From Candidatus Latescibacterota bacterium (GTDB lineage: Bacteria; Krumholzibacteriota; Krumholzibacteriia; WVZY01), in assembly GCA_011772205.1 (NCBI GenBank), contig WVZY01000012.1, positions 1 to 64,000 of the forward strand: DNA of 64,000 nucleotides, written 5' to 3'. The notes under the pieces are model-generated. The model was given only the letters and a program-made list of their open reading frames with translations, was not told the DNA's origin and searched no databases. This document shows, in pieces, positions 8,589 through 54,851 of this stretch. The translations under genes were made by a program, and so were the position numbers. The first letter of the stretch is position 1; each line of letters opens with the position of its first letter.

Positions 8589-8622
8589 ACGAACCTCTGC
8601 CGGTTGATTGTAACTCTATATT

Positions 8623-8669
8623 GAGGATAATCGAACGTTCGGCGATAATCAAGAGAACGGGCGATAATC
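8623..8669. repeat. Three direct GATAATC repeats between clpX and lon
   Basis: The plus strand reads GATAATC at 8626-8632, 8644-8650 and 8663-8669, start-to-start spacing 18 and 19 bases. The last two extend to GGCGATAATC and the first is GAGGATAATC. The first two overlap the lon promoter candidate and the third reaches the clpX stop codon. A palindrome CGAACGTTCG (8632-8641) lies between the first two copies. The near two-helical-turn spacing suggests a multimeric regulator site, but none is identified. Confidence 0.6.
8624..8652 (-). promoter_or_regulatory. Candidate sigma70 promoter for lon
   Basis: -35 TTGATT (8652-8647), a 17-base spacer and -10 TATCCT (8629-8624) sit about 35 bases before the lon ATG. 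Both boxes coincide with GATAATC repeat copies. No CIRCE-type element was seen. Confidence 0.4.
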
Positions 8670-9922: not shown

Positions 9923-9952
9923 ATAAGCTCCTCGTCCCTTCTGTGCGAGGAA

Positions 9953-10558: not shown

Positions 10559-10619
10559 TTAAGGATCCTTTCCTTTAAAATAATATAATGCATTGCCAGA
10601 ACCCGAAGAAGCAAAATCG

Positions 10620-14772: not shown

Positions 14773-17580
14773 ATGTCCCTCGCCGCTCGACTGATAATCG
14801 CTCGATTGATCATCTCGATAGTGCTGGTCGTCCCTTCCCCGAATGGATTTCGTGCGACTGCCTCGCAAGCCACAAAACAATCGCCTTCCGCAATGCCCTG
14901 TGAATCTCATGGAGTGTTTATCAAGGACAGATTGCGTGCCATTTTCCGGACACAGCTTGCGAGCGGGGTGCTGAGCGTTAGCGGCGCCGACGCGTGGCTG
15001 GAAGACTACCCGATCCTGGCGACGCTGAGTCTGGAAGCCTACAGATCGGATCGGGACGAAGCGTTCCTGCAGCATGCGTACAGCTCGATCGCCCGCTATT
15101 TCAATTACCTCTTCATAGAACAGGATGCGGATGGGGATTTTCTCATCGAAAGCCCTGATTGGAACGGAGCGGGACGATCTCAGGAGCGAGTTGCTTTCAA
15201 TGCCCTGCTTGCGATGGATATGGAGAATCTTTCCCGGATCTGCTTGCAGCTCAAGGTTCCGCTCAGGGGACTGCTCTGGCACGAAGGAGCGCGGATGATT
15301 AGAGAGCGGCTGACCACCGCCTGTTATGATGCGGATGCGAACATTTTCTTCTCATTGGAGCCGCTCACCAATGAAAAGCGTTGGCGCGACGGGCCATTCC
15401 TGCTACTGCCGACCCTGTTCCCTGACGGCATAGGGGAGAACTTCGCATCCTCGATGCTCCGGCAGTTCCTCACCAATCCCAACACGACCCGAGCGAATCC
15501 GACGGATGGCAGCGGAGGAGACGGTTCAGCGCCCTTCGGCGAATCCAACATCAAAACAAAGCACCTGCTGGAATCTTGCCTGGTTCCGGAAATACTCGAG
15601 CGTAACGGTCTCGTATCCGAAGCCGCCAACTTCCGCAAAAAGAGCATGCCTCAGCCCGGATCGACGCCACTCGAACAGTCATCTACCAGGCCTTCCGGCG
15701 CTGCAGTATACGAGGATTACCTGACCTGCCGGCTAGCTCAAAGCAACGGTGAGCATCTGTTTCCCCCGCTCCTCCCCCTCGAGCTCTTCTCACGAATCGC
15801 GATTGCCAAGTACATATTGCGCGGCGAAGAAGGTACATCATTAATGCAGAGCATCAACGAGATTTTGCATTATGTATGCATGTCTCGAAGCCCAGCGGAA
15901 TCAGCTAGCAACTATCGGACGATCGACGACAAAACCGCTCTCGCCGCCGTTCGACAAGTGTATCAGAGCATCTCAATCGTCAAAGAACGGCGAAAAAGGG
16001 GCGCCATCTTTACGCCAAGAGACCGAACTGATATCCCCGGCTTCGACTTGGACGGTGCTTTCACCAGGCTCATCCAGGATGTCATCAGCGCGCTTCACCG
16101 TGTGGAATCGACCATTTTTCATTCGCAAGGCAACGAGAAGGGATTTCGCCTTTCGAGCCATCTTTTGAAGGAACGAACGGTGATCGGTGAAACGATCACC
16201 CTGCGCCTGAACATCTCAGTGAACCGCGCTCCAGAAGCTATTCGCTCGGTCCTGCTCTCACGTGAAGCGCTCGTTGATACTCTGTTCCACTCCAATCTCC
16301 CTGCGGAGCTCCGTCCGGGAGGCGAGCCGATAACGCTCTTTCACCGCTTTTCCGTACCATCCGATTGGATGCCAGGGATTCATACGGTTCCGTTCTCCGT
16401 CACCGTGCGGCTCGGCACGGGGGAACGCCGGCGGTTGTATTTTCGCAAAAGCATATATCTCGACCCCCCCGTCGCATTCCAGGTCACATTTCCCGAAGGG
16501 CGAACCCTCAAGGATTGGGGTGTCCCTTTGGATGTTCAAATCAACAAGAAGGCGCCTTATCCCGTTGTGATTCAAACCGGCTGGTACAGCCCATCAGGAT
16601 TGAAGCTCAAGGAAGGAAAATCGCAAGAGATTTACATGCCTGAACTACAAAACTCGGTGTCGACCAAGCTGCATGTGCTTGCTCCGAGTCCGATCCGCCC
16701 GGGCGCTTTTCCATTCGTGTTCAAGATTTTTGCAAACGGTCTCGATCTCGGCACGATCTCATCAACGCTGTTCAAGCATTACCAGTGGATTTTCGTGGGC
16801 TCCTTTGCCACCGAGGGCGACCCGCTTCTGCAGGTATACCCTCCGGAGCGCGGGGTAAACCTATTCGCTGTATTCGATGGAATCGATAGCCGGATCTTCT
16901 GGCGGATGCTTCCGCCAGAAGCGCTATCTGACAATGGTGAGATCAACCTCGGTGATTTGCTTGCTCCCAATGGGGTCGGCTTTCTCTACACCGTGATAAA
17001 GAGCACGCGGCCAATGTCCTGCTCCGCATTCCTGTCCGGCAATGTTCCATCAGGGCTGTTGATCAATGGAAGACTCGTTCTCGGATCGAATCCAAACTCG
17101 TCTCCGGGCCAGTCGCAATGCACCATTCAATTGAAAGAGGGTCTCAATGACGTTCTCGTTAAAGTAGTAGGCGGCGAGGGGGCGAGAATATTTCTGAATC
17201 TCGGGGACGAGGAAAGCCTCACGTCCGATGAATTCAACAACAATCTATGGGAACTGGTCGACGGATTCAAAGACTTTTACGAAAAGCGAATCCGCCAGTT
17301 CGCCGAATCAAGCTCAACCCAGAAGCTCGCCACTCTCCGCTTTTTCGACCAAGAGGCGAACTCCGTCTCCGTAATCGGAACGTTCAACGGATGGTCTGCA
17401 GAAAGTTCACAGCTGAAAGAAATTTCAAATGGCGTGTGGGAGATCTCTCTCCATCTTCCTCCCGGAAAATACGCGTATCGATTCCTCGTCAACAACAGAA
17501 CGCAGGTGCTGGATCCCCGCTGTCCCGTTCAGGAACCGGATGGATTCGGCGGCATGAATTCCGTGCTCTACGTCGAATGA
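14773..17580 (+). CDS. Exported protein with alpha/alpha-barrel glycosidase-like N-half and C-terminal CBM48/glycogen-binding domain
   Basis: A 935-residue protein and the only plus-strand gene between 1 and 24 kb. A hydrophobic N-terminus (about residues 5-28) looks like a signal peptide. Residues 60-230 resemble the (alpha/alpha)6 barrel of MGH1/GH63-type glucosidases: W-L-E-D-Y-P, D-A-D-G-D-F-L-I-E-S-P-D-W-N-G, and helices with A-L-L-A-M-D-M-E. The usual G-W-D-N-S-P element is altered, so activity is doubtful. The middle (about 450-830) is beta-rich and unrecognised. Residues 855-935 match CBM48/AMPK-type glycogen-binding folds (V-I-G-T-F-N-G-W, P-P-G-K-Y-A-Y-R-F-L-V). It may bind or act on alpha-glucan outside the cytoplasm. 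It ends 21 bases before the convergent feoB stop. The ribosome-binding site is weak (AAAGG, 14 bases before the ATG). Confidence 0.65.
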   Translation: MSLAARLIIARLIISIVLVVPSPNGFRATASQATKQSPSAMPCESHGVFIKDRLRAIFRTQLASGVLSVSGADAWLEDYPILATLSLEAYRSDRDEAFLQHAYSSIARYFNYLFIEQDADGDFLIESPDWNGAGRSQERVAFNALLAMDMENLSRICLQLKVPLRGLLWHEGARMIRERLTTACYDADANIFFSLEPLTNEKRWRDGPFLLLPTLFPDGIGENFASSMLRQFLTNPNTTRANPTDGSGGDGSAPFGESNIKTKHLLESCLVPEILERNGLVSEAANFRKKSMPQPGSTPLEQSSTRPSGAAVYEDYLTCRLAQSNGEHLFPPLLPLELFSRIAIAKYILRGEEGTSLMQSINEILHYVCMSRSPAESASNYRTIDDKTALAAVRQVYQSISIVKERRKRGAIFTPRDRTDIPGFDLDGAFTRLIQDVISALHRVESTIFHSQGNEKGFRLSSHLLKERTVIGETITLRLNISVNRAPEAIRSVLLSREALVDTLFHSNLPAELRPGGEPITLFHRFSVPSDWMPGIHTVPFSVTVRLGTGERRRLYFRKSIYLDPPVAFQVTFPEGRTLKDWGVPLDVQINKKAPYPVVIQTGWYSPSGLKLKEGKSQEIYMPELQNSVSTKLHVLAPSPIRPGAFPFVFKIFANGLDLGTISSTLFKHYQWIFVGSFATEGDPLLQVYPPERGVNLFAVFDGIDSRIFWRMLPPEALSDNGEINLGDLLAPNGVGFLYTVIKSTRPMSCSAFLSGNVPSGLLINGRLVLGSNPNSSPGQSQCTIQLKEGLNDVLVKVVGGEGARIFLNLGDEESLTSDEFNNNLWELVDGFKDFYEKRIRQFAESSSTQKLATLRFFDQEANSVSVIGTFNGWSAESSQLKEISNGVWEISLHLPPGKYAYRFLVNNRTQVLDPRCPVQEPDGFGGMNSVLYVE

Positions 17581-20849: not shown

Positions 20850-23705
20850 TCACTTCAACACCACCATTTTCCGGCTCAACATCTGCTTCCCAGCCGTAAG
20901 CCGGTAGACGTAGACGCCGGAACTCACTCGCTCACCGTTCTGATTTCTTCCATCCCACTCCGAGCGATGCGGCCCGGTTTGAAACACCCCAGTTGCCAGC
21001 GCTCGCACCAGACGCCCGCTCACATCGAAGATCTCCAACCTGATCTTCGACTCCGCAGGGAGATAGAAGTAAATCGTCGTGCTCGGATTGAACGGATTCG
21101 GGTAGTTCTGCTCGAGAACCAGATCCCTTGAAGGCACCGTTGCACTGTCCCTGTACAGTTCGGTCACGCGTCCGTCCGGAGTTTCGGTGTCAAGCCTGTA
21201 GAAATACGTTTTCCCGGGCTCGACCTCCCGATCGACGTACACATAGGCTCCCTGGCCTGTTTCCTCGATGGGTCCAGGGAGATCAGCCCAAGGGCCGTCG
21301 GGAGAAAGGGAGCGCCTGAGTACGATCTTTTCATCGAGCGAGAGATCTTCTAGCGCAAAACGGATCTCGATGCCTCCATCAATGAGAGAAACGCTTGCCG
21401 ACTGGAGCTTCGCCGCCACGATCTGGTTCAAGTGCAGCGCGTTCGGAAGCACGGCCTCCTGGGCATCCGGATTTGTCAGGGCAAGATCCCAGAATCCGCC
21501 CAGTCTTCCGTATATATAGAACGTTCCTCTGATCCGCGTGGGATCCACCCATTCGAGGGAGGTGGCATCGATGTCCGTCTCTCCCGTTCTAGTCAGGCGC
21601 ATAGTCGCGCCGTACTTGACGTAATTCCCGTCCACCGTGACATCTATCGTCGTGACATTGTTATCCGACGAATCCGGATCCAACTGAACGAGCGCGGGTG
21701 CAGGATCTCCCGCTTTGAGGTTCGCCGAAATCGAAGGTCCGGATGGACCGATGTTGGTAACGGCAATCAACGTCGGCTGCCCGGTGTTGTCATTGCTGTT
21801 CGGATTCGATCCCGAGTCGAACGTAGTATTGTTGCTCGTGCCAGGAAAGGGATCCCCCGGATCGCCGCGGTTGTCTCCTTTAGGGAGGTTCTGCTGGCCG
21901 TCCGCTTCTTCCAGGACGACTCCCCTTGCGGCGTCGTTCTTTGGAGTATCATCGCTGCACGGACTGCCGCAGTTTCCATTCAATGAGTGAATGATATCTT
22001 CATCGATGTGCCAGATGAGCAAACCCGTATTGTGGAGGTTCGCATCGAAGCCAACTTGTTGCCTGTTCTCTACCAGCCAGTACTCGGACGCCGGGTTCTG
22101 CGACGAACCCTGATGCCATCCATCGACGGATGTTTCGAAATCGGTAGAATAGCTTTCCCCGCCTCCCGTGACGCTCACATTGTCTAGAATAATCGCCCCA
22201 CAGAGCGTCGGGTTTTTATTGTCCTCATCGGACCACGAATAATCAGACACGAACCTGAAGATCAGCTGGTAGTCGATGGGCGGGGTATGACCAGACAGAA
22301 CCGGCGAGAGATCTATCGATTCCGTTCCGGAACTCAGATTACCCGTATAGGTCCGGAGCACCGTTTCTGTACTGTTTACCCTTATGAGCGTGTAAGCGTA
22401 ATCGTAATCAGTCTCAATGTCGTATTGATAATCATAGGAGAACATGACCGGTGTTGTGCCATCAAAGTCAAAGTCCCTCTCGATCGATTCGTCCCAACCA
22501 TTTCCGTAGCCGCCCCTTCCATCCCAGTGAAGCGAATCCCCCTCTTCGTTCGTCACGCCGCACCGAAGGGAGTGCGAGCCGGCGATCGCGCATTCGGCCA
22601 ACCGGCGAAAACGTTCGTCTGTGAAGGCGAGTTTGTACGCCACGGGATTCGTCTCGATTTGAGGAATCGAGAACGCGCTTCCCTGCCAATCGACCTCCGT
22701 CGGCACGATCCATCCGAGTTCCTTGCGCGTCCAAGCACATGGATGCGAGGGCTGTGACGGTGTATTCCAGCTCCCGCTTCCCATGATGCCCCAGTGACCG
22801 ATGCCTTCGGGACCGGGAAACGGGCCGTTGGCGTCGTAGAGGTCAGGAAGCCCGAAAGCGTGGCCGCTTTCGTGACAGTACACTCCGATCTCGATCATCG
22901 TTAACGCGCAGGAGTACGCCGGCTGGACGGTATAAGCGTCGACTTTGATAAAGCCACCGCCTGCAGCGGCGTCATTGGTGACGTACGGACCGCCGCCTGA
23001 TTCCGCCCACCCCCGAAATACCCAGCTATGAGACCAGAGATTATCGCCGCCGCATTCCCCGCCGCTTTCATTGTGCACGAACATTGTGAAATCAACGTAG
23101 CCATCATCGTCGCCTGAATTCGGCACACCATCCGGACCGTCGTTATCGTATTGCCCGAAATTCACAATGGGATCGTTGTGATTGAGGAGCTCCAACAGGA
23201 ACTGGCCTGTTTTGGCATCAAAGCCAAGCCCTTTGCAACAGCCCGCGTAATATATGTCGGTCTGCGATACTTCGAACCAAGGATACACCGTGCCCGTTGC
23301 GTTCAACATCCCGTAGGAGACTTCGGCGAAATACTCGGTCATCGTGCCCGGGGGCCAGGGTCCGTCGAAGAGTTCCTGCTGAATATCTGCAGAAGGAACC
23401 GTATCCGGGCGGTTCGTGAACTTGCCGAGAAGAACGGGAATAAAAAAGTCTCCCGACAAGCTGTACTCTTCGGGCAGATAAGCTACCGACTTCACTCCGT
23501 TTGCATGCAAAAAAGCCTCGCGTTTCGCTTTGATGTTCCGCGCTTTGTTCGTCCAGGCACGATCCACTTGAAATGCGCGCTTATCCTCCGCTTTTCTGGC
23601 GTAGTAGGCCTCTGGAAGCCTTCCACCATTCTTGGGAGGCACGATCCCGCCCGCCGCTGCGGCGAGCAACAATAGAAGTCCGGCTGCAATTGCAATGGTC
23701 TTCAT
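20850..23705 (-). CDS. Secreted M6-family metalloprotease with C-terminal FlgD/type A sorting-like domain
   Basis: A 951-residue extracellular zinc peptidase related to immune inhibitor A. A signal peptide of about 20 residues starts M-K-T-I-A-I-A-A-G. The catalytic motif H-E-S-G-H-A-F-G-L-P-D is at 278-288 (ligands His278, His282 and probably Asp288). Acidic D-N-D-G-P-D-G-V-P-N-S-G-D-D runs near 187-200 look calcium-binding. A jelly-roll region (about 400-560) and an N-T-G-L-L-I-W-H-I-D-E segment follow, then an IPT-like region. The last 90 residues start N-Y-P-N-P-F-N-P-S-T and form the FlgD-Ig-like tail common in FCB-group secreted proteins. AGGA lies upstream of the ATG. Confidence 0.88.
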   Translation of the reverse strand: MKTIAIAAGLLLLLAAAAGGIVPPKNGGRLPEAYYARKAEDKRAFQVDRAWTNKARNIKAKREAFLHANGVKSVAYLPEEYSLSGDFFIPVLLGKFTNRPDTVPSADIQQELFDGPWPPGTMTEYFAEVSYGMLNATGTVYPWFEVSQTDIYYAGCCKGLGFDAKTGQFLLELLNHNDPIVNFGQYDNDGPDGVPNSGDDDGYVDFTMFVHNESGGECGGDNLWSHSWVFRGWAESGGGPYVTNDAAAGGGFIKVDAYTVQPAYSCALTMIEIGVYCHESGHAFGLPDLYDANGPFPGPEGIGHWGIMGSGSWNTPSQPSHPCAWTRKELGWIVPTEVDWQGSAFSIPQIETNPVAYKLAFTDERFRRLAECAIAGSHSLRCGVTNEEGDSLHWDGRGGYGNGWDESIERDFDFDGTTPVMFSYDYQYDIETDYDYAYTLIRVNSTETVLRTYTGNLSSGTESIDLSPVLSGHTPPIDYQLIFRFVSDYSWSDEDNKNPTLCGAIILDNVSVTGGGESYSTDFETSVDGWHQGSSQNPASEYWLVENRQQVGFDANLHNTGLLIWHIDEDIIHSLNGNCGSPCSDDTPKNDAARGVVLEEADGQQNLPKGDNRGDPGDPFPGTSNNTTFDSGSNPNSNDNTGQPTLIAVTNIGPSGPSISANLKAGDPAPALVQLDPDSSDNNVTTIDVTVDGNYVKYGATMRLTRTGETDIDATSLEWVDPTRIRGTFYIYGRLGGFWDLALTNPDAQEAVLPNALHLNQIVAAKLQSASVSLIDGGIEIRFALEDLSLDEKIVLRRSLSPDGPWADLPGPIEETGQGAYVYVDREVEPGKTYFYRLDTETPDGRVTELYRDSATVPSRDLVLEQNYPNPFNPSTTIYFYLPAESKIRLEIFDVSGRLVRALATGVFQTGPHRSEWDGRNQNGERVSSGVYVYRLTAGKQMLSRKMVVLK

Positions 23706-42623: not shown

Positions 42624-45600
42624 TTAGAATGTGGGACCGATAAAGAAGTGGAATTCGTTGTCACCCACAGATTTCATGTCGGTCGGCCACGCGAACTGGA
42701 AGTTGAGGAGCAAAAACCCGAGGTTGAAGTACGCCCCAAAGCCGAAGTCTCCTCTCAGATCCTCGAACTGCAGTCCGCTCACATTTTTTTTGAAGGGAGT
42801 GAAATCATCTTTATCCCATGCGGCGCCTACATCGAAGAAAAGCGTGCCGCCGATGTTGGTAAATCCCCAGCGGCCCGGCCAACCGAAAATCAGTGCATCG
42901 AGCAGAGGGTACCTGTATTCGATGCTCATCAGACCCATCCGGGTGCCGAAAAACGAAAGGTAATCATAGCCTCTGAGAGTGGTGGGCCCTCCTAGGAAGA
43001 ACGACCGAGCATCGTCGCCTTCGCTCATAGCACCCGCGAGCCTGAACGCAAAAGAATTCCTGTAGAACAGCCTCTTGTACCATCGATAGTCCAGAAAAAC
43101 GGTTGTCCTCGAAACGTCTTCATCTCCTCCCAAGCTCAATCCCTTCGAGAGGCTGATGGTCCACCTGGATCCCTCCACGGGCCCGAAATAGCTCCAGAAC
43201 GACGAGTCGTGGGTAAATGACAGTGCTGGCTCGATGAGACGACGGCTGGATTCTTGCGAAGGGATGAAAACGATTCGGCTTGTGAATGGATCTTCCTCAA
43301 CTCGCTCGAAAAACTCTCTCTCGGACACGAAGGCCTGAAGCTCCAGGTCCATTCGATAAAACGTGTTGAATGGTATACTCACCAAACCGAAGAATCCGTA
43401 GTTCCGCTCGCTGAAAAGGCGGTAGTTTGCAAAGCTTTCCCCAATAGAGCTCAACCGGCTGTTGAGATAATTCTTGAATTGAAATACTCCGAAACCGTAG
43501 TTGATGCGCTTCTTGAGATAGTAGTAAGAGGCGAGAAAATCCGAGTTCTCGAAATCCCTGTACAGGCTGAAGGAAAATAGCAGTCGGTGATCCCCCAGCA
43601 GATCGCTCAATGCAATGGTGTTTGCCAGACCGAATCCAAAACCTGTCGAATAATAAAGACCGCCCTGGCCGATATAATCCGGCGCAAACCGGGTTTTGTA
43701 CTTGGCAACGGTTGCCCCTTTTGTTTGCGTCTCCTCACTGCGCACCGCAGTAGTCACACCTTCGATCATACCTGCTTGCTTCGTCCTCTTTGCTTTCATG
43801 GAGTCCAATCGGGCCGGCTCGAGACGCGCTTCGGGTTCCTTCAGCGAACTAGGGGATATTGTCGGTATCAGCGAATCGATTTTCGTGGAAGCGGTGGCTA
43901 GCACTTCCTCCGCAAGGGACGCTGAATCGACGGATGCTTTTGCAATCACGTCTTCCGAGAGTTCGGCTTTCGGGGAAGTAACAAGGAGGGCATCTCCATC
44001 GATGACCTCCGTCTCGGCCGGAATCTCGTCGGTTTCATCGGAGACGGCAATCTGCTCGATAACGGGCAGGTCCTTGTACCTGCGCTTGACGAGGTTATCG
44101 AAGTCATCGGAAACGAAGATATCATAACCGCCTTTTATAAAGGCTGCGAAGGTAATCCTCCCCTTTTCCTCATCCACATCGGGGGTAAAGAGACCTCCTA
44201 ATATGTCGGTAAAGCGGTGGTACTCTCCTGTCTCAACATTCCCTGCATAGAGGTTGTCGATTCCCGATTCATTCGATGTGAAGATCAGCGTCTTGCCATC
44301 TTTGAGGACCAGCGGGCTGTTGTCATCCCCATCTGTCTGAATGAGCGGTCGGATCGAGGCACTCTCCAGATCCATTTCGTAGATATCCAAGCTGACATCA
44401 TGCTTTACGTTGTCGGGTGATAGAAAATCCATCTCGCTCAATATCTTTTTGTTTTCACCCGTGAATGTGACAGGCACCGGCGAAGTAACCTCGGGGTAGT
44501 ACGTGAATACAATCCGCTTCCCATCGGGATAAAACCGAGGTGTCAATTGATCCGCTGCATCGTTTGTCAGCCGGCGGTAGCTTCCGTTCTCCACATCGAT
44601 GAGAAGTAGATCCGACTGGCCGCCGATGGTCGCAGTAATCACGATCGTATCTCCCATTGGGGACCAATCGGGAGCAGACAAGCCATCGGCATGAACATCG
44701 ATCTTCTTCAGTACGTCTCCCTTGTTCGCGTCCACGATAAAGAGCGCATCGTGACCTTTGGATTTGGCCGCGAACGCAATCCTGCTCCCGTCCGGACTGA
44801 AGCTTAGGCTGCTCGTGTATGAATGAAGCGACTCAAACCGGTTCGAGCGCTGGCCGGTTACCAGCTTCTTTATGATCTCGCCATCCAGGGCGGACATGAT
44901 GAAGATGCTGATCAATCCTCCACGGTCGGAAAAGAACGCTATTTTTTCTCCGTCTGGTGACAACACGGGTTTCGTATTGTAGTAACCGTGGTCTTTTACG
45001 TGATCTGTCAACCGACGGCCGACTTCCTCCACATCCATTTTGTGGCTATAAAGAGGCCAGTAGTGTTTTCGGAGCCACTTTTCCCATCGCTCGCCGAGCT
45101 CCCGAGTATCCAGCCCCAGAGTTGCCTCGAGTGCAGCGCTCCCGCTGCGCGTTGTCGAGAGCACGTCGAGAATTTCCAGCACTTTTTCCTTCCCGTAAGT
45201 TTCATCGATGTAGTTGAAAACCGATTGCCCCTCCTTATAGACATAGAATCCGCCAACGGCATCCAAAGGGGCAATGTAATCGTAGATCACCGCATCCCGT
45301 ATAAACATGTCCGAGTCGGCATCCCAGCCGACGGCGAGGTACTCCGCGATGCCTTCGGCAATCCATAGAGGCATGGCGAAAAGATAGTTGCGCGAAAACA
45401 CATTATCGAGCAGCCGGTTGTAGACGATGTTGAATGTGAAGACGTGCGCGAGCTCATGAATCGCGGTGTGTCGAAAGTCACGAAAAGAGCCCGAAAACGG
45501 GAGTACGATCCGTTTACGAGATGGCTCCGCAAATGCCTGAACTCCCTCGGGAAGAAGTTGTGATGACACGTTCGTCTGCTGAAAATCGTTGTGTGAGGCG

Positions 45601-45875
45601 TATAAGATAACCGGAACTTTCCACGGGAGCGTCGTCCGAAGCTTATCGGCAAGCATCTGATAGCCGTTCTCGAGCAACAGAGCCGTTCTTGCAGCAAACG
45701 GTTCTTCCCCTTCATAAAAATGGATTTCGAAGTGCGGGGTGCTGAGGATTTCCCACTTGTAATCTTTATACTGGATTTTATTGCGCCCGAAATACTGGGC
45801 GTTAACGGCATCTGCGAGGAAAATGGTGAGTATCAGCGCGAAAATGAAAACGCCTAAACGGGGGGTGAATCGCAT
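42624..45875 (-). CDS. Gluzincin-type peptidase / TolB-like propeller / outer-membrane beta-barrel fusion protein
   Basis: A 1083-residue protein with a signal peptide (to about residue 26, A-V-N-A-Q). Residues 40-280 form a peptidase-MA-like domain with zinc motif H-E-L-A-H at 140-144 and a third-ligand candidate Glu174 in W-I-A-E-G-I-A-E-Y. Residues 290-620 contain repeated P-D-G-x-[KR]-I-[AV]-F blades of a TolB/PD40 propeller. A low-complexity Ser/Glu/Ala linker covers about 620-740. The rest is an Omp85-like barrel with F-L-G-G-P-T-T-L-R-G-Y (the conserved L6 R-G-Y motif) and a terminal Phe in H-F-F-I-G-P-T-F, the outer-membrane beta-signal. It follows tamB by 124 bases. GGAAGG lies seven bases before the ATG at 45875. 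The joint role is unknown; surface or periplasmic proteolysis tied to barrel export is one idea. Confidence 0.8.
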   Translation of the reverse strand: MRFTPRLGVFIFALILTIFLADAVNAQYFGRNKIQYKDYKWEILSTPHFEIHFYEGEEPFAARTALLLENGYQMLADKLRTTLPWKVPVILYASHNDFQQTNVSSQLLPEGVQAFAEPSRKRIVLPFSGSFRDFRHTAIHELAHVFTFNIVYNRLLDNVFSRNYLFAMPLWIAEGIAEYLAVGWDADSDMFIRDAVIYDYIAPLDAVGGFYVYKEGQSVFNYIDETYGKEKVLEILDVLSTTRSGSAALEATLGLDTRELGERWEKWLRKHYWPLYSHKMDVEEVGRRLTDHVKDHGYYNTKPVLSPDGEKIAFFSDRGGLISIFIMSALDGEIIKKLVTGQRSNRFESLHSYTSSLSFSPDGSRIAFAAKSKGHDALFIVDANKGDVLKKIDVHADGLSAPDWSPMGDTIVITATIGGQSDLLLIDVENGSYRRLTNDAADQLTPRFYPDGKRIVFTYYPEVTSPVPVTFTGENKKILSEMDFLSPDNVKHDVSLDIYEMDLESASIRPLIQTDGDDNSPLVLKDGKTLIFTSNESGIDNLYAGNVETGEYHRFTDILGGLFTPDVDEEKGRITFAAFIKGGYDIFVSDDFDNLVKRRYKDLPVIEQIAVSDETDEIPAETEVIDGDALLVTSPKAELSEDVIAKASVDSASLAEEVLATASTKIDSLIPTISPSSLKEPEARLEPARLDSMKAKRTKQAGMIEGVTTAVRSEETQTKGATVAKYKTRFAPDYIGQGGLYYSTGFGFGLANTIALSDLLGDHRLLFSFSLYRDFENSDFLASYYYLKKRINYGFGVFQFKNYLNSRLSSIGESFANYRLFSERNYGFFGLVSIPFNTFYRMDLELQAFVSEREFFERVEEDPFTSRIVFIPSQESSRRLIEPALSFTHDSSFWSYFGPVEGSRWTISLSKGLSLGGDEDVSRTTVFLDYRWYKRLFYRNSFAFRLAGAMSEGDDARSFFLGGPTTLRGYDYLSFFGTRMGLMSIEYRYPLLDALIFGWPGRWGFTNIGGTLFFDVGAAWDKDDFTPFKKNVSGLQFEDLRGDFGFGAYFNLGFLLLNFQFAWPTDMKSVGDNEFHFFIGPTF

Positions 45876-45999
45876 GTTGTTACCTTCCAGCAAGTTATGG
45901 GTGCTTGGTCAACCCAGCCACACGCCCCCGGCCACTATTTTGAAACGTCTCTATCATTTAAAATATAAGTGCATTGCCTTTCACTCAAGCGAAAATCCA

Positions 46000-48900
46000 T
46001 CAGTATTCGAAACGAAATTTGATGTCCAAATTGATCTCATCCGTAGCCCTTCGTCTCTGCCCCAAGAATAATCTTTCCGAGTGGCGTATGATTTCCGAAC
46101 GGATGAGAAGCATGTTGCTAATCCTGTATTCGATGTCCACCTCTCGCTCAGAACGCACCGAGATGCCTTGACGATATTTCAAATACAAATCTTCGGAAAG
46201 ATATTTGCCGATAGCTATGGTCATCTCGCGCTCCCCGTCCGCCGCATATCTTCTCCCTCCCGGCGTCCCAGCTTCGACGTCAATGGTAACGTCACTCATC
46301 TGCGCATTGAGAATTCTTTCGAGATAGTTCGAAGCGATCCCGTGCGCTGTTCCGGTTGCATCCCAAGTACCACTTCCCGAACCCGCCGTGGGCGATACAT
46401 AAGTTCCGCCCAGCATCTTCCAGATATCCGTTTCACTGTAGCCGGGTTCATCATAACTAAGAGTCAGCTGAGGTTCCTTCTTGTCATAAGGCCATGAGAG
46501 GTTCAAGAAGATCCGGTGCTCCCGGTCGCCCTCACGCCTGTACGGCGTATAAGCTTCCAGAAATATCTCAGGTCGCAAGGCGACGGCTTTCGAGAAGTCG
46601 AATCTCCCGTCGGTAATCCGAAATTTGTTGTTGTAGATCGTATACCTACCCCTCAAAATTTCTAGTTCTCCCCGGAGATAGAGCCCCTTGTCATCTCGCT
46701 TCAGAATCACCTCCCCGGCGATTTCCATGTTGAGGTCCGGATTCCTCACCCAGACGTTTTTAGGGGCGCTGATATCGATGCTGCAGATCCAATCCGGTGA
46801 AGCTGTAGGCATCGTTATCGCAGAAGCGGGGCCCTCCCCCGCGCCCAGCGCTCGCATGATCTGTGCCTGTTTGACCGTCGCCGAACCAGTAATGTTTGGA
46901 ATCAATCCCTCGTCCCCCCATTGCTGGGATGTGATAGTGATAAGCCCGTCCTGCGTGGAGCTGACGTCCGGTATCGATGCGAGCAAAAAGTCTTTAAAAT
47001 GAAGGTCCACTTGGTAGTGCTCTATTGTGAATCCATGCAGCTTTGCGAAACCGGATCCGTAGAAAGATCCTCGCTTGCCCTCTTTCCCCGTCAGCTTCAT
47101 GATCCGGATCTGATCTTCCTCGAAAGCGACCTTGGCATCGATATCTCTATACACCTCTTCCATTCCCGAAAGACGCAGAGTGCCGTCCGTGACATCGATT
47201 TCCCCCGTCATTACAGGAACTTCAAACGATCCTCCGATCTCGACATCCCCTGAAAGCTTCCCTGATGTGGACGCAACCCTGTCGAAATATTGCTGGAGAC
47301 CCACTAAATCCTCCGATTCGATCGAGCCTTCCAAGCTAAGGGGGATGTCCTGCCGGAGCCGTACTCCGCCGGGAATGCTCAACACCATTGGGAGGCTGCC
47401 TTTGAGCTCTCCTCTCCAAGTACCATCGTCGAACGCAACTTTCATAACGGATAGTATGCTGTCTTCATAGACGAACTCGCATGCAACGGCAGGGAGATGC
47501 ACCCCTCCTTTTTTTGCGTCGGATAGAGTACCGGTAATCCGGACCCTTGGAGCACTCGGTATACTCTCGAAGAGAATACCTCCGGTAAATGCTCCGCTGG
47601 GACGGACTCCCGAATGGAGTGCCTGAAGGGCTGTGGATAAGGGGAAATGGTGGCTTTCCAGTTCTAGGGCAAATTGTCTCGTAGTCGATTCTTCGACCTC
47701 GATTCCCTCTCTCGCCAGGAGAACGGGTGACATGGGGAGCCTCCACCATCCCGACGCCACCAGCGAATCTCCCCCCGCTACTACGACGAGTCGGTCAAAC
47801 TGATAGCCCTCCTGCGGTGAAAAGGCACCCTCGAACTCAAGACGATCGAATGAGAGGCTATCGATGGCGCCTTCTCTAAGGCTGACGAACAATTCCACAT
47901 CCGGATTATCCACGTCACCCGAAATAGCAGCACGGAATCGACTCCGTCCTTGTAATCGAAATGGCAGCGCAAATGCGTCTTGGAACATAGAGAAATCGAT
48001 ACTCTCCCCCCAACCGGACAAGCGGCACCGACCTGCGTCCACGGAATAGTTTCCCACCACTCCCACGGATCCACGGCGGGAATAAAGTACCAGGGAATCG
48101 ATACGCACCGAGCCTTGCTCAAGCAAGAGATCGAAAGGAGCCGCTGTCTTCCATTCATCGTCTTCGGTGGTAAGGGAAATATGTTTGAAGGTCAGCAAGG
48201 ATTCCAGACTATCCCCCCGGACATCGAAGTCCATCGTTATAAACGTGTCTCCTTTCGCGAAACTGAAGTCCTTCACCATCATTATATCGGGCATCGCTTC
48301 GAGGAGAACGTGGGGATTCGAAAACTCACGTCCCTGCAGAGCAATTTCCCTCCCGCGAAGATCGACTCGCACAGAAACGGATTCACTGGGCACATCATTG
48401 ATCTGCGCCTGGACTGTTCCGCTGTCGATAGCCGCAAATAGATAAGATGCTTCCTGGAACTCACCGTTCAGGTTGATTTGGAGCTTATCGATCGGTCCGG
48501 AGATCCTTCCATTCAGATCCAACCGCCCTTCGATAGGCGGGAGCGAGAGGAATTCCCACAGGTATGTGATATCGTCACCCTTCAATCCGAACAAGAGATC
48601 CGCCTGCGACTGTGTATCGACCGTACCTGAGCCGGTGATGATGAAACCAGGTCTCATGAGCCTGACCTCATCGATTTCGAGACCCTGTTCTTCGAGCCAA
48701 CGCCCGTTCATGACGAGCCGATCGCTTTCGAATCCATTGACAACGGAGCTGTCAAGATCGGCGCGAAATACATACGATCCCGCCGGTCGACTGTGTTCGA
48801 TCTCAACATCCCCATACAGGCCAGTCTCAGGCGCTCCACTTACCGGAAGAAAACCCTGGGAGAGATCCAGATCGCTGCAGAAACCTTTGAACTCAAAACC

Positions 48901-49923
48901 GCCGTCATCCCCCATGATGTACCGAGCCTGGCCGTTGATATGACTGCCGAAAATATCTCCCTCAAGGCTCGACATGTACAGTTCATTACCGGCCATCACG
49001 CCGGAGAAAGACAGTCCGCCGAATATCAATCCCCATCCGCTCCCAGTGATCCTTCCATTGAGCGTCAATGAATCCAACGGGCCATCGAGAACGACGCTTC
49101 CTCCCAGCTCGCCTTCATTTGATGGGAGCAGTCCCATATCCGAAATTTCCTTCAGATCCACAGGATTGAATACCAGCTGAAGATGCTCGAGCTTCCCATC
49201 CTGGTATCCGCCGGTTGCCATGATGAACGACTTGTCCAAACGAGTAACGAATCCTTTGAGATTCAGATCCTGGCCCTGGAATTCCACTCTGGTTCGAAGA
49301 GAACTAATTGATGTCTCCGTATCAATCAGGTATCCGCTTCCGTCCTCCACTTCGAGGGATCCCTTCTGATCGGCATACTGCAGGGATCCCGAGAGGAACA
49401 CATCTCGTACCATGAGCTTTCTTGCGCCCCCGCTGAAGAACAAATGCAGTCCGTTGATTGCAAACCTCCGGACGTCGACTTGAGGGGACATCGATTCGCC
49501 AGGGCCGCCGTTGCTTGGAGAGAGGGGTATGACAAGGCGTCCGCTCTCATCCTGACCCACCTGGATACGTGCGTTATCGATGGTGAGCTCGTCCACTATC
49601 AATCTGAGCTTCAAGAGCTGCATCAGCTGATAATTTACCGTTACGTCATCGGCTTCAAAGATGGTGAAACGCTTACGCCCGTCATCATATCTGAGATGCG
49701 GATGTTCCAGCGACACGCGATTCACGAAGTCCCCCGAGACCTTTTTGCACGAAAAGCGAAATGGTGTCCCTTTCAGATAATGTTCATTTACGAACTTGCT
49801 GACTTGGTAGGGAAGATAGGCGCTTCGCTTGAAAATCCAAAAGGTGAGGACAATGCTCAGCGCAAGGGCAAGCACGAGGGATAGCCTTCGATGAAATCTG
49901 ATCCTGCGCCGCTTTGTGGCCAC
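46000..49923 (-). CDS. tamB: TamB-family translocation and assembly protein (AsmA-like, DUF490)
   Basis: A 1307-residue envelope-spanning protein. One N-terminal transmembrane helix (about 12-31) anchors it in the inner membrane. The long middle is repetitive beta-strand (the bridge-like groove family implicated in lipid transfer and autotransporter assembly). The C-terminal DUF490 region shows V-K-Q-A-Q-I, G-R-Y-T-I-Y-N-N-K-F-R-I and G-K-Y-L-S-E-D-L-Y-L-K-Y-R-Q-G, ending in alternating hydrophobic strands with F-R-F-E-Y. It starts 14 bases after the TamA-like gene stop, so the two form one unit. Length is within the family range. Confidence 0.92.
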   Translation of the reverse strand: MATKRRRIRFHRRLSLVLALALSIVLTFWIFKRSAYLPYQVSKFVNEHYLKGTPFRFSCKKVSGDFVNRVSLEHPHLRYDDGRKRFTIFEADDVTVNYQLMQLLKLRLIVDELTIDNARIQVGQDESGRLVIPLSPSNGGPGESMSPQVDVRRFAINGLHLFFSGGARKLMVRDVFLSGSLQYADQKGSLEVEDGSGYLIDTETSISSLRTRVEFQGQDLNLKGFVTRLDKSFIMATGGYQDGKLEHLQLVFNPVDLKEISDMGLLPSNEGELGGSVVLDGPLDSLTLNGRITGSGWGLIFGGLSFSGVMAGNELYMSSLEGDIFGSHINGQARYIMGDDGGFEFKGFCSDLDLSQGFLPVSGAPETGLYGDVEIEHSRPAGSYVFRADLDSSVVNGFESDRLVMNGRWLEEQGLEIDEVRLMRPGFIITGSGTVDTQSQADLLFGLKGDDITYLWEFLSLPPIEGRLDLNGRISGPIDKLQINLNGEFQEASYLFAAIDSGTVQAQINDVPSESVSVRVDLRGREIALQGREFSNPHVLLEAMPDIMMVKDFSFAKGDTFITMDFDVRGDSLESLLTFKHISLTTEDDEWKTAAPFDLLLEQGSVRIDSLVLYSRRGSVGVVGNYSVDAGRCRLSGWGESIDFSMFQDAFALPFRLQGRSRFRAAISGDVDNPDVELFVSLREGAIDSLSFDRLEFEGAFSPQEGYQFDRLVVVAGGDSLVASGWWRLPMSPVLLAREGIEVEESTTRQFALELESHHFPLSTALQALHSGVRPSGAFTGGILFESIPSAPRVRITGTLSDAKKGGVHLPAVACEFVYEDSILSVMKVAFDDGTWRGELKGSLPMVLSIPGGVRLRQDIPLSLEGSIESEDLVGLQQYFDRVASTSGKLSGDVEIGGSFEVPVMTGEIDVTDGTLRLSGMEEVYRDIDAKVAFEEDQIRIMKLTGKEGKRGSFYGSGFAKLHGFTIEHYQVDLHFKDFLLASIPDVSSTQDGLITITSQQWGDEGLIPNITGSATVKQAQIMRALGAGEGPASAITMPTASPDWICSIDISAPKNVWVRNPDLNMEIAGEVILKRDDKGLYLRGELEILRGRYTIYNNKFRITDGRFDFSKAVALRPEIFLEAYTPYRREGDREHRIFLNLSWPYDKKEPQLTLSYDEPGYSETDIWKMLGGTYVSPTAGSGSGTWDATGTAHGIASNYLERILNAQMSDVTIDVEAGTPGGRRYAADGEREMTIAIGKYLSEDLYLKYRQGISVRSEREVDIEYRISNMLLIRSEIIRHSERLFLGQRRRATDEINLDIKFRFEY

Positions 49924-49937
49924 GAGAGAGCCCCTTT

Positions 49938-51902
49938 TTAGAATATCTGCCCCAGGCTTATGTGAATTCGGCCCGTCTGATCCATGCCCGGTTCCCTCTT
50001 TATAGGGATCCCATAATCCAATCGGATTGGGCCAACGGGCGTGTTATACCGGATCCCAAAACCTACGCTATACCGATAATCTTGCTGTATCACATCATCT
50101 TCGTCCACAACCAGACGAAAATGGCGGAAGCGCACGCTACGTAAACTCGACCACACATTCCCACCATCTACGAAAATAGCTCCTGTCAGCCGTAAGCGCG
50201 AGAGATAAGGTAGCGGAAATCTCAGTTCCGCATTGGTCAAGAGCAACACCCGCCCGCCGATCACAGTCCCCCCTTGAAAGACGCTCGGAGCACCCACTGG
50301 ATCTGCAACTGGCCCAAGGCCGGCTTCCGGGTAGCCTCTAACAGAGTTCCCACCCCCTGCGAAATAGCGATTCTCGATCGGCACCCCCCGATCCTTCGAA
50401 TCACCGAAGGCGTCGGCAAATCCAACCCGCCCCCTCAGCGCCAGGACCACACCCTTTTTATTCAAATATCTCTGTATCGAACCACTGATCGTGTAGAAGT
50501 CGTTGTCACCCGCCAGTGGCCCGCCAGCGAACTGAAGCCGGATCGACCGGTAGATCCCACGTCTCGGATTCAATATGAAATCTCTTTTGTCGTACGAAAG
50601 CATGGTTGTCAGCACTCTCGTTGTGGACTTAACACCCGGGTCTTCGGGGGACTCCCTCTTTATCCGCTCGTGAGACAAGCTGGCGAAAAGATCCGTATAC
50701 CTGCTCACTCTTCTCTGCGTGCCGAGAGATAAGCCGATGGTGCGGAATGTGATGGGATCAACGGTTGCATCCTTTTCGTAAAAAGCGTTCAGACTGAGCA
50801 GCACCTTTTTGCCCCAGATGCGTCTTTGGTGGAACTCCCCTTCGTATCGATAATAGCGGGTTCGAATCTCGAATTTCCCGAAATCCAGCTCGTTGTCTTC
50901 GAAGATCCCAAAGGAATACTCAATTTTGAGCCTCAGCGCGCGCCCCAGACCAAAGAGGTTTCGATCGCCCCATTCCGCGAGGACACGGCTGCCTAAGATA
51001 TTTCCCACACCAAACCCAGCTTCGATGTATGCCGATTTTCTTTCACGAACCCGAACATTGATATCGACCTGCTTCATGGTAGTGTCGAGGTGTTCGGGAA
51101 TCATCTGCACCTCGGTGAACAATCCGGTCTCGTACAGGTTTCTCTGCGCATCGAGAAGTTTGTTCAGTCTGAAAGCGTCGCCTTCCTTGAAAGTCAACTC
51201 GTTTTCGATGATCGACATCTTGGTGAGCTGGTTTCCCCAGATGTTAATACCTCTGATAGCGATGACCGGACCGGGGACGATCGTGTACACGATTTCGGCG
51301 CTGTGATCGGAGAGCCTCACCGAATCCCTGATGGAAACAGCGAGACGACCCTCATTGAAATACTTGGTCTTGAGCCTGTAGATGTCCGAATCCAGCAATG
51401 AGGGATTGAATGGCACTCCCTCTTCCAACATGAGGTCCCTGCGCAGCTCCCACGGATCCAAAAGGAGATTGCCTCTGAACGATACAGAGCTAACGCGCGT
51501 CGCTTCCCCTTCTTCGATTTTTATGAGGACGTCGACAAACCTGCCGTCTTCGGAATACTCCAGTCTCAGCAATTCCACCTTCGCTTCAAAGTATCCCCGC
51601 GTGTGGTAAAACGCCTCCAGCGTCCCAATGTCTCTGAGGAGATAGTCTCTCTTGAGCCGGGGCTTTCTGAAAATCGCGAAAAACGAAGGCTCTTTCGTGT
51701 GCATCTGACCCTTGAGTTCTTTGTCGGAGAAAGACTCGTTTCCAACGAACATGATCTTGTTGATAAACGGCTTGCGCTCCTTTTCTTCGGGCGAATCGGC
51801 CTGGGCAAAAGCCACCGAAGCCAGGGCCATCGCCAATAAATAAGCAGCTAAGAATGTCATGAAAATGCCCCGTTGCATGGGGTTGACACCGACCGCGTTC
51901 AT
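49938..51902 (-). CDS. tamA: Omp85-family outer-membrane assembly protein, TamA-like
   Basis: A 654-residue Omp85 protein. After a signal peptide ending near A-S-V-A-F-A-Q come three POTRA-like units (starting I-N-K-I-M-F-V-G-N, V-S-S-V-S-F-R-G-N and I-R-G-I-N-I-W-G-N), then a 16-strand-type barrel with N-S-V-R-G-Y-P-E-A-G-L-G-P (L6 motif) and terminal Phe. Three POTRA units and the adjacent tamB favour TamA over BamA, which usually has five. With no second Omp85 of that size in view, a BamA role cannot be ruled out. The start at 51902 is uncertain; the next in-frame ATG at 51878 also gives a signal peptide. Confidence 0.85.
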   Translation of the reverse strand: MNAVGVNPMQRGIFMTFLAAYLLAMALASVAFAQADSPEEKERKPFINKIMFVGNESFSDKELKGQMHTKEPSFFAIFRKPRLKRDYLLRDIGTLEAFYHTRGYFEAKVELLRLEYSEDGRFVDVLIKIEEGEATRVSSVSFRGNLLLDPWELRRDLMLEEGVPFNPSLLDSDIYRLKTKYFNEGRLAVSIRDSVRLSDHSAEIVYTIVPGPVIAIRGINIWGNQLTKMSIIENELTFKEGDAFRLNKLLDAQRNLYETGLFTEVQMIPEHLDTTMKQVDINVRVRERKSAYIEAGFGVGNILGSRVLAEWGDRNLFGLGRALRLKIEYSFGIFEDNELDFGKFEIRTRYYRYEGEFHQRRIWGKKVLLSLNAFYEKDATVDPITFRTIGLSLGTQRRVSRYTDLFASLSHERIKRESPEDPGVKSTTRVLTTMLSYDKRDFILNPRRGIYRSIRLQFAGGPLAGDNDFYTISGSIQRYLNKKGVVLALRGRVGFADAFGDSKDRGVPIENRYFAGGGNSVRGYPEAGLGPVADPVGAPSVFQGGTVIGGRVLLLTNAELRFPLPYLSRLRLTGAIFVDGGNVWSSLRSVRFRHFRLVVDEDDVIQQDYRYSVGFGIRYNTPVGPIRLDYGIPIKREPGMDQTGRIHISLGQIF

Positions 51903-51945: not shown

Positions 51946-52314
51946 GTGAGCCCGTTTCTCAGATTTTTCTTCAAGCGATCCATCCTCTTCACAATATCAG
52001 TTGCACTGGTTCTGTTGCTTGGCTTTTGCAGCAACGAGAGAAAGTCTGCCAGCCAACGTCCTCTTACCGCTGACGAGCTCTATCTCATAGAAGCGTACGT
52101 ATCCGTAAACAGCGCACGAATCCTCCACCAAAAAGATCCGCTGAAAGCCGAAAGCCTTTTTACCCGGCTCGATTCTACGCTAGACACGTTGAGGATATCA
52201 AACACGATCAGGGCACTCAACGTCCAGCCGGATCGTTGGGCGATCATCCTCCAAGAAATCGAGAAAGCGCTCCGGGAATCGCCTTACAGGGGAAATCTAG
52301 AAGAGACCCGGTGA
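51946..52314 (+). CDS. Small predicted lipoprotein between TamA and RseP
   Basis: A 122-residue protein starting at GTG 51946 with GAGAGG six bases upstream and a promoter-like pair before it. The N-terminus has Arg/Lys then a hydrophobic run ending L-L-L-G-F-C, a lipobox with Cys at about residue 28. The mature part is helical and charged: L-T-A-D-E-L-Y-L-I-E-A-Y-V, A-E-S-L-F-T-R-L-D, P-D-R-W-A-I-I-L-Q-E-I-E. I do not recognise a named family. Its last 18 bases overlap the 3' end of rseP on the opposite strand. Signal peptide, ribosome-binding site and promoter together argue it is real. Confidence 0.65.
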   Translation: MSPFLRFFFKRSILFTISVALVLLLGFCSNERKSASQRPLTADELYLIEAYVSVNSARILHQKDPLKAESLFTRLDSTLDTLRISNTIRALNVQPDRWAIILQEIEKALRESPYRGNLEETR

Positions 52315-53670
52315 AGTCCCCGCACATCTGCTGATGTCCATGATTACCACGAAGGTCATCAGCAAAATGATCAACGCGAAACCAACCTGGGTGAGGATCT
52401 CCCGAACCCGCCGGTTTACCCGGCGCTGCGCGGCTCCTTCGTACAAAAACAGCACGAGGTGACCACCGTCAAACGGAAGAAATGGGAGCAGGTTGAAAAT
52501 ACACAAATTGATACTGAAAAACGCAAGAAAATAAAGCAGATAGTTGAAGCCCCATCGCGCCATATCCCCCGCCATCTGGGTGATGAGAATAGGACCTCCC
52601 AACGAATCCAGACCTGCTTTCCCGGTAAACAGAAGCTTGAGGAACGACAGGATCTCAGCAGTCATCCTGTAGGCGGCTGTCGAACCCATTTGAACGGCCT
52701 TTAGGAATCCGACTTGTTTCCTCTCATAATATGGACCAACACCGATTTGACCGACGATTCTTAGCTCCGTTTTGGAACCTTCTTTGAGTATCTTTTTAGC
52801 CTCTGGAACCACCGTATCTACATGTGCCTCTCCATCGAACGACCACTGAATAACGAGGGGAATCCCAGGTCTCGGGTGTATGACGTCTTCGATCTCGTAA
52901 TAGCTGGTAATGCTCGTGTCGTTAATCGCCTCTATTATAGCTCCCGTCCTCATTCCCGCCTTATAGGCCGGAGCATCTCGCTTGACTTGTCCAATCTTTG
53001 CAGGAATATGCGGTAAGAATCCAAGACTAATCCGGTTATCCTTCACTTTGCCCTTGAAGCCGATATCTATCTTTTCCCCTCCGCGAAGAACCTCGAACCT
53101 CTTGGCAGAATCCCAGTCTTCCAGGATAGCATCGTTCACTTCGCCCCAGTTCGCTACCTGCTTGCCATCGATGGCCAGTATTTCATCCCACACCTGCAGG
53201 CCACAAGAATCTGCAGGTGAATCTGGGATGACATGGCCGATCGTTGTTGTGGGAATCACCCGAATTCCCTGGAAATTGTAGATGCCTGTGTAAATAAAAA
53301 TTGCCAAAACAAAGTTCATCAATGGTCCGGCCACGATGACGGCACTCTTGATGAGCACTCGCTTGTTTCTGAAGTACTTTTCCGGGGAAATCTCGCGGTC
53401 AGGAACTTCGCCCGATGGAGGCTCCTCTGCAGGGGCATCATCAGTGGACTCGTCCACTTCGCCGGCAAATTTCACATAACCACCGAAGGGAAGAGCCGAG
53501 AGGGCGTATTGCGTATCGCCGAATCGCTTTTTCAACAATTTTTTCCCGAAGCCGACCGAAAATGTCTTCACGAAAACCCCGGAAACCTTGGCAACAATGA
53601 AATGCCCGAACTCGTGCACGAGGATCACTACGCCTAATACGAACGCTCCGGCAATAATCGTGATTAGCAT
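52297..53670 (-). CDS. rseP: Site-2 intramembrane zinc protease RseP
   Basis: A 457-residue inner-membrane protease that cleaves anti-sigma factors and signal-peptide remnants. H-E-F-G-H near residue 20 in the first membrane helix is the zinc motif. Two PDZ-like regions follow (around 140-210 and 225-300), and the L-P-F-L-P-F-D-G-G-H segment near 400 carries the third ligand Asp. The ATG at 53670 with GGAG six bases upstream is preferred; it overlaps the dxr stop by seven bases, implying coupling. Confidence 0.94.
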   Translation of the reverse strand: MLITIIAGAFVLGVVILVHEFGHFIVAKVSGVFVKTFSVGFGKKLLKKRFGDTQYALSALPFGGYVKFAGEVDESTDDAPAEEPPSGEVPDREISPEKYFRNKRVLIKSAVIVAGPLMNFVLAIFIYTGIYNFQGIRVIPTTTIGHVIPDSPADSCGLQVWDEILAIDGKQVANWGEVNDAILEDWDSAKRFEVLRGGEKIDIGFKGKVKDNRISLGFLPHIPAKIGQVKRDAPAYKAGMRTGAIIEAINDTSITSYYEIEDVIHPRPGIPLVIQWSFDGEAHVDTVVPEAKKILKEGSKTELRIVGQIGVGPYYERKQVGFLKAVQMGSTAAYRMTAEILSFLKLLFTGKAGLDSLGGPILITQMAGDMARWGFNYLLYFLAFFSINLCIFNLLPFLPFDGGHLVLFLYEGAAQRRVNRRVREILTQVGFALIILLMTFVVIMDISRCAGTSPGLF

Positions 53671-54851
53671 GACCAACTCCATGTGGATTTTTTATTTTTC
53701 AGGTGAAACTTTTCACCCACATACTTTCTCGTGACCTCCGCCGTCTTGAAAATATCTTCAACTGAACTCAGGTCACTAGTAGAGATCTTATTCAACGCAT
53801 CCTCTATTATAACGCTGATTTGCGAAAATGGCATTTCTCCCGCCAGAAACGTGGCAACGGCCACCTCATTCGAGGCGAGGAGCACCGTCGGCGAGCTTCC
53901 GCCCATCTCGGCCGCCTCGCGTGCGAGCTTCAAACACGGATATCTATTTATATCCACGGGTTTGAAGCTGAGTTCCGGAAACTCTTCGATTCTACTTGGG
54001 ACAAGATCGCTCTCGATCCGTTCCGGGTAGGACAACGCATACAGTATGGGCAGACGCATATCAGGTACGCTCATCTGGGCGAGGATCGATCCATCGGAGA
54101 ATTCTACGAGCGAATGAACAATCGATTGGGGATGAACCACGACGTTGATTTTTCCCAAAGGCAAGTCAAAGAGCCACTTGGCTTCGATCACTTCGAGCCC
54201 TTTGTTCAGCATTGTTGCGCTGTCTACGGTGATTTTATCCCCCATCTTCCAAGTTGGATGAGACAGCACTTCTTCGACTCCAGCACTCTCCAACTCTTCC
54301 AAAGGTCGATCCCGGAGGGCACCACCGGAAGCGGTGAGATAGATACATTTCACATCCCAGGTCGAATAGCCCCTCAGACACTGGCTGATCGCGGCATGCT
54401 CGCTGTCAACAGGGATAATAGGAGCGTCCGATGACTTCGATACGTTCATGAGAATCTCGCCGCCAGCCACAACCGCTTCTTTGTTAGCAAGTGCCACGGC
54501 GATACCATTGGACAAGCAATAGAATGCCGGCTTGAGGCCCTTGAAGCCGACAAAAGCGTTCACAACGAGATCCGGCTGGGTTTCGCTGATGAGCCGCACG
54601 ATCGCCTCATCGCCGTGTCCGGCGCTTCTTTTCTCGAATGAAGGGTCCGATTGCATGATCCTGTCGTGAGCTTCGGCATCGCACACAGTGAATTTCGCAT
54701 CGGCATGCTTCCTACACTGCTCTTCGAGAAGAGAAACGTTCATCCCCGCCGCCAAGCCCACTATTTTGAATCGATTGCGATGATGCTCGGCCACGTTCAA
54801 GACATTGCGACCTATAGATCCAGTTGCTCCTAACACAACGATTCGTTTCAT
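53664..54851 (-). CDS. dxr: 1-deoxy-D-xylulose 5-phosphate reductoisomerase
   Basis: The 395-residue second enzyme of the MEP isoprenoid pathway, converting DXP to MEP with NADPH. The motifs are L-G-A-T-G-S-I-G-R-N at 6-15, A-L-A-N-K-E-A-V-V-A-G-G near 120, P-V-D-S-E-H-A-A-I near 147 with metal ligands, and T-A-S-G-G-A-L-R near 181. GAGGAG precedes the ATG. It sits between cdsA and rseP in the usual order. Confidence 0.96.
   Translation of the reverse strand: MKRIVVLGATGSIGRNVLNVAEHHRNRFKIVGLAAGMNVSLLEEQCRKHADAKFTVCDAEAHDRIMQSDPSFEKRSAGHGDEAIVRLISETQPDLVVNAFVGFKGLKPAFYCLSNGIAVALANKEAVVAGGEILMNVSKSSDAPIIPVDSEHAAISQCLRGYSTWDVKCIYLTASGGALRDRPLEELESAGVEEVLSHPTWKMGDKITVDSATMLNKGLEVIEAKWLFDLPLGKINVVVHPQSIVHSLVEFSDGSILAQMSVPDMRLPILYALSYPERIESDLVPSRIEEFPELSFKPVDINRYPCLKLAREAAEMGGSSPTVLLASNEVAVATFLAGEMPFSQISVIIEDALNKISTSDLSSVEDIFKTAEVTRKYVGEKFHLKNKKSTWSWSC

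Follow-up and report, generated by a model that had tools for sequence, protein, structure and literature searches.

What does an outer-membrane barrel protein that carries its own peptidase do directly behind a tamB gene? This question is raised by the 64,000-nucleotide stretch of DNA analyzed here (the window), contig C34 of a genome of 4.13 Mb (81 contigs) that has Krumholzibacteriota as its closest named relatives. On its minus strand, genes for a BamA-like Omp85 protein and a TamB-domain protein are followed by a gene for a peptidase–propeller–barrel protein (PPB). We find that this gene order is kept throughout the clade to which PPB belongs and that the predicted catalytic residues are invariant there. 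We tentatively read PPB as an outer-membrane-anchored zinc metallopeptidase that works near the BamA-like/TamB pair without being required by it.

Domains and catalytic residues of PPB

PPB spans 1089 aa from a TTG start, or 1083 aa from the ATG at 45875. Residues are numbered from the TTG, so that His140 and Glu141 of the initial annotation of this DNA are H146 and E147 here. Its features, with the evidence used to place them, including AlphaFold2 (AF2) models and their predicted local distance difference test score (pLDDT), are as follows.

42624..45893, minus strand: PPB (peptidase, TolB-like propeller, Omp85 barrel); open reading frame (ORF), Pfam and AF2 model
44988..45797, minus strand: gluzincin (M1-like) metallopeptidase domain; Peptidase_MA_2, AF2 crop and residue conservation
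44100..45000, minus strand: TolB-like beta-propeller, about residues 298–596; PD40 and Foldseek
43686..44100, minus strand: linker, probably flexible, about residues 597–736; pLDDT 21–32 and variable length
42627..43685, minus strand: Omp85-type barrel without POTRA, LRGYDY loop at 973; PF01103 and modeled strands

As the initial annotation had proposed, the three domains lie in one chain, each above its cut-off: Peptidase_MA_2 scores 43 bits (curated cut-off 32.4), PD40 83 bits (curated cut-off 20.9) and, at the C-terminus (42627–43634), PF01103 (Omp85) 53 bits (cut-off 24). No Pfam match to a POTRA domain was found ahead of the barrel. The top Foldseek matches of the propeller are TolB (E = 4e-15), and its score against the TolB equivalog TIGR02800 is 138.7 bits, under the cut-off of 343. 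The full-length AF2 model has a mean pLDDT of 54.6, too weak for reading contacts, with the propeller mostly at 75–92 and barrel strands visible. In clade members the linker is anywhere between 50 and 192 aa long. R974 and G975 of the barrel loop are invariant in all 81 aligned rows. PPB begins with a Sec signal peptide and, like 69 of the 81 homologues, ends in Phe; a C-terminal Phe is the usual signal for the barrel assembly machine (BAM). Together the barrel, the C-terminal Phe and the signal peptide support a location of the peptidase at the outer membrane, where the initial annotation had predicted it.

Residue conservation was read from the same 81 homologues, 45 of them in the clade at the TAM (translocation and assembly module) locus and 36 outside it. 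The peptidase domain contains HELAH (residues 146–150), W177-x2-E180-G181-x2-E184 and Y219-x2-G222. H146, E147, H150, E180, Y219 and G222 are invariant in 45/45 clade rows; the 36 other rows all keep E180, Y219 and G222, and 35 keep H146, E147 and H150, the exception being a tandem PPB copy from Calditrichota. This copy (L225:8125-10773, genome G115), the second of its pair, lacks HExxH and is either truncated where the contig stops or inactive. Such conservation implies strong selection for activity. W177-x2-E180-G and Y219-x2-G222 resemble the Glu ligand and the stabilizing Tyr of M1 peptidases. An AF2 crop of the domain (pLDDT 70.9, predicted TM-score 0.70) finds its closest PDB folds among M1 aminopeptidases and M9 collagenases (E about 1e-3, TM-score about 0.5). 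PPB shares with these enzymes the gluzincin layout HExxH...W-x-x-E-G...Y-x-x-G but differs from them in sequence (identity about 10–15%) and lacks the GxMEN exopeptidase substrate motif of M1 aminopeptidases, which is absent, by reading, from the sequence ahead of HELAH. PPB is thus probably an active gluzincin (MA clan), judged by its HExxH motif, downstream Glu ligand and gluzincin fold.

Conservation and loss of PPB at the tamB locus

Of 80 genomes from the phylum, 54 have PPB relatives at E ≤ 1e-60. In the PPB tree, 45 full-length rows form one clade (support 99), and all 45 sit at the tamB locus, compared with 0 of the 36 other rows. When three truncated copies are added, TamB lies just upstream on the same strand at 48/48 clade loci, the window included, with a median gap of 97 nt between TamB and the first aligned PPB residue. 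The order persists across PPB identities as low as about 30%. The initial annotation had staked its idea on adjacency of the three genes in relatives and on the zinc residues, for which it had cited HELAH and EGIAEY; the order is kept at every clade locus, so that it is no chance arrangement, and both motifs are present in PPB and conserved in all its clade homologues, with the zinc residues invariant. A TamB–PPB fusion that appeared at one locus (L104, 2416 aa) was rejected: the frame upstream merely stays open over a long distance, the genome being GC-rich, and TamB (7081-10935) has its own stop.

In the window, the minus-strand order is frr-uppS-cdsA-dxr-rseP-Omp85-TamB-PPB-uvrD-gatC-gatA-gatB; the order in E. 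coli is rseP-bamA-skp. The genes around PPB are listed below.

52297..53682, minus strand: rseP, site-2 protease, the neighbor marking the bamA position; Peptidase_M50, 223 bits
49938..52034, minus strand, likely start ATG 51902 as in the initial annotation: BamA-like 3-POTRA Omp85 protein, the 'TamA' of the initial annotation; Pfam and NCBIfam
46000..49923, minus strand: TamB-like protein, 1307 aa; PF04357, 139 bits
40214..42472, minus strand: uvrD helicase, downstream neighbor of PPB; Pfam

Where PPB is missing (loci L145-L169), Omp85-TamB-uvrD is intact and uvrD directly follows TamB. Mapped on the uvrD tree, this absence amounts to three changes, in family f3, in genus g34 and in a large part of family f8, for which three losses are the best reading. 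In the f8 genomes that lack PPB, a profile search recovered no relative of PPB; some of them gave propeller matches of TolB size and nothing more. Hence PPB is old at the tamB locus, and its losses, three or more in number and each with Omp85-TamB-uvrD kept, make it a dispensable accessory. Distances controlled for dxr and rseP correlate at 0.45 between PPB and TamB, at 0.45 between PPB and Omp85 and at 0.08 between PPB and uvrD; these values point only weakly to coevolution, as the background is too high for proof (TamB-uvrD 0.63). One genome (G015, family f6) is missing all three of the locus Omp85, its TamB and PPB and keeps another TamB. This joint absence would fit a module; it comes from one draft genome and may be loss of the whole locus or an assembly gap.

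Full PPBs also occur in another phylum, to which two genomes led by way of loci L018 and L019; L019 is named Calditrichota. There, 39 of 40 genomes match PPB at E ≤ 1e-60, with peptidase and propeller recognized by Pfam and the barrel by profile match. In none of the 40 Calditrichota genomes does PPB adjoin tamB, which rules out that the PPB family is Tam-bound in general. The coupling to Tam that the initial annotation suggested therefore stands as adjacency within the clade but is not obligatory. By gene coordinates, mlaE lies directly downstream of PPB in 11 of the 40 genomes; PPB-mlaE-mlaF was read in detail at five loci, with mlaE above the TIGR00056 cut-off. Cases include L218:9744-14362, L219, L221, L222 and L227, and genomes G085, G087, G090, G091, G094 and G096. 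In Krumholzibacteriota, mlaE is located elsewhere, away from PPB. The mlaE and TamB neighborhoods both point at intermembrane phospholipid transport, the mlaE link being a post hoc one from part of one phylum.

The BamA-like/TamB pair and other genes

The initial annotation called the two upstream genes tamA-tamB. The second half of this label holds at the level of the domain: the TamB protein has an N-terminal membrane anchor and a C-terminal DUF490/TamB domain (PF04357, against a cut-off of 22.4), and with 48.9 bits against the equivalog NF047952 (cut-off 825) it is by sequence a TamB-domain protein rather than that equivalog. The first half does not hold. The locus Omp85 has three POTRA domains and an Omp85 domain, all above Pfam cut-offs, and matches the BamA model TIGR03303 with 346 bits (cut-off 297, model positions 151-741 aligned), compared with 102 bits against the TamA equivalog NF047950 (cut-off 625). 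On TIGR03303, the locus Omp85 of three relatives reaches 319–360 bits and E. coli TamA only 134. A separate BamA with five POTRA domains is encoded on contig C8 (TIGR03303, 509 bits), and in the Omp85 tree, whose branches are long, it is the Omp85 of contig C47 that pairs with E. coli TamA (97/96), whereas the window Omp85 does not. By the curated models, then, the upstream Omp85 is not TamA but a paralogue of the BamA class, with three POTRA domains and its gene at the place of bamA, and the NCBIfam scores, the position after rseP, the separate BamA and the TamA-like pair on C47 make "BamA-like/TamB pair" the best name for the locus.

Several further genes touch on these proteins. The C47 pair (L062:7052-13478, G000:C47), an Omp85 of 606 aa with a TamB of 1540 aa, is the second such pair in the genome and is nearer to canonical TamA-TamB. 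The same genome encodes two more peptidase–propeller–barrel paralogues (L064:7148-9940, G000:C77; L065:8058-11264, G000:C20), one of them flanked by dapF-like and proS-like genes. On the strand opposite to rseP and the Omp85 gene, and between these two, lies an ORF of 122 aa (51946-52314, plus strand) with a hydrophobic, Cys-containing, lipoprotein-like N-terminus and no Pfam or NCBIfam match; similar small divergent ORFs recur at this junction in many relatives (L071, L073-L075, L079, L092, L097, L103, L168). A scan for promoters and terminators gave site numbers no higher than chance. Elsewhere in the window, 20850-23705 (minus strand) encodes a secreted peptidase of the M6 type (immune inhibitor A-like). 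Its C-terminus is a FlgD-like/Por secretion tail, which suggests C-terminal sorting by a system akin to type IX secretion. A protein of 935 aa (14773-17580, plus strand) carries a glycogen-binding module (CBM48/AMPK1) at its C-terminus and matches a glycoside hydrolase weakly.

Possible functions of PPB and comparison with known systems

We lean, tentatively, toward a role of PPB in quality control or processing near the BamA-like/TamB pair. BAM would insert the barrel into the outer membrane and the N-terminal part would presumably stay periplasmic, as in other Omp85 proteins, with peptidase and propeller hanging under the membrane on a tether of 50–190 residues. The propeller would hold substrate or dock on a partner; a contact with Pal or TolA, as the initial annotation envisaged, would be an analogy only. 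The peptidase may then cut stalled, misfolded or trim-needing proteins near the pair, in a manner like that of BepA at BAM, and PPB relatives in Calditrichota could have a comparable task elsewhere. BepA offers a precedent as a periplasmic zinc-peptidase that acts on barrel intermediates at BAM (PMC8423444), and we infer that quality control or processing is the best testable idea. Several points weigh against it. The protease role, the substrate and the contacts are predictions; no sequence relative of the peptidase domain was found in the PDB; the losses, at least three, leave Omp85-TamB intact, so there is no strict dependence; the PPBs of Calditrichota never adjoin tamB; and genes beside housekeeping clusters may remain neighbors with no function in common.

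This last point leads to the view that there is no functional link at all and that PPB is simply one more outer-membrane peptidase, encoded by chance within a stable housekeeping cluster, from frr to gatCAB. The stable order of such neighbors, the loss of PPB while the other locus genes stay and the paralogues elsewhere (dapF-PPB-proS in its own genome) all suit it, but site and subfamily have stayed together (45/45 clade members, 0/36 other rows) and the gaps to TamB are short and operon-like; we consider it unlikely. We are as doubtful of the opposite extreme, in which PPB would be a standing third component of a phylum-wide BamA-like/TamB trans-envelope machine, a barrel-tethered protease in a lipid or protein export bridge with its propeller docked, and with a sister version on an Mla-type transporter in Calditrichota.

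Distinctly unlikely, in our estimate, is that PPB serves outer-membrane lipid homeostasis as a partner or regulator of phospholipid transport, with the peptidase adjusting the level or the assembly of the TamB bridge or, in Calditrichota, of MlaEF. Two independent neighborhoods, TamB and mlaE-mlaF, do involve phospholipid transport, and TamB is described as an AsmA-like anterograde lipid transporter (PMC12800296, PMC8593681). Nevertheless, the mlaE link, noticed afterwards in part of one phylum, probably reflects one ancestral event, mlaE lies elsewhere in Krumholzibacteriota genomes, and PPB has no lipid-binding domain. It is improbable that the barrel exposes peptidase and propeller on the cell surface, for nutrient digestion or surface protein release, with the tamB site an old insertion. 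The Omp85 protein PlpD is thought to deliver its enzymatic N-terminus outwards (PMC4104836), and two to three PPB paralogues per genome at unrelated sites would suit general peptidases; yet the position after TamB is strict across the whole phylum, and PPB has no POTRA to aid export.

What is known of proteolytic control in outer-membrane assembly comes mainly from soluble enzymes of the periplasm, DegP and BepA among them. If the quality-control reading is true, a peptidase fixed to an Omp85 barrel and tied genetically to the TamB bridge would represent a different solution, in phyla that lack model organisms, and the WD40-Omp85 proteins, unexplained since 2014, would gain an enzymatic function to test. 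That subfamily, with TolB-like N-termini, was defined by Heinz and Lithgow in 2014, who suggested a BamA-BamB-like fusion (PMC4104836). PPB shares its Omp85 barrel, the preceding TolB-like WD40/PD40 propeller and the lack of POTRA. It differs from the subfamily as described in the main text of that paper, where the word "peptidase" has 0 occurrences, in the M1-like gluzincin ahead of the propeller and in the position of its gene after tamB. The 'Metallo' Omp85 subfamily of the same paper is a different group (PF00149). No description of a peptidase–propeller–Omp85 protein or of its tamB linkage was found in the literature, a search that left subscription journals largely outside; in the papers found, the barrel-plus-propeller part has been known since 2014, while the peptidase and the tamB linkage appear undescribed.

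The locus resembles the TAM complex (TamA-TamB) in having a POTRA-Omp85 gene directly before tamB, but here NCBIfam places the Omp85 in the BamA class, its gene comes after rseP, and PPB follows as a third gene. In Borrelia burgdorferi, a BamA-class Omp85 has been modeled in one complex with TamB as a hybrid BAM-TAM (PMC13382580); that paper contains no such third protein, and the present genome has the additional 5-POTRA BamA on C8. The E. coli M48 peptidase BepA is likewise a periplasmic zinc-peptidase that acts on barrel proteins at their assembly site, but it combines M48 with TPR, is soluble and is not barrel-anchored, and we claim no homology to PPB. Finally, PlpD and the patatin-Omp85 proteins (type Vd) share with PPB an enzyme domain N-terminal to an Omp85 barrel, although PlpD is a lipase, whereas PPB is a predicted peptidase with a propeller.

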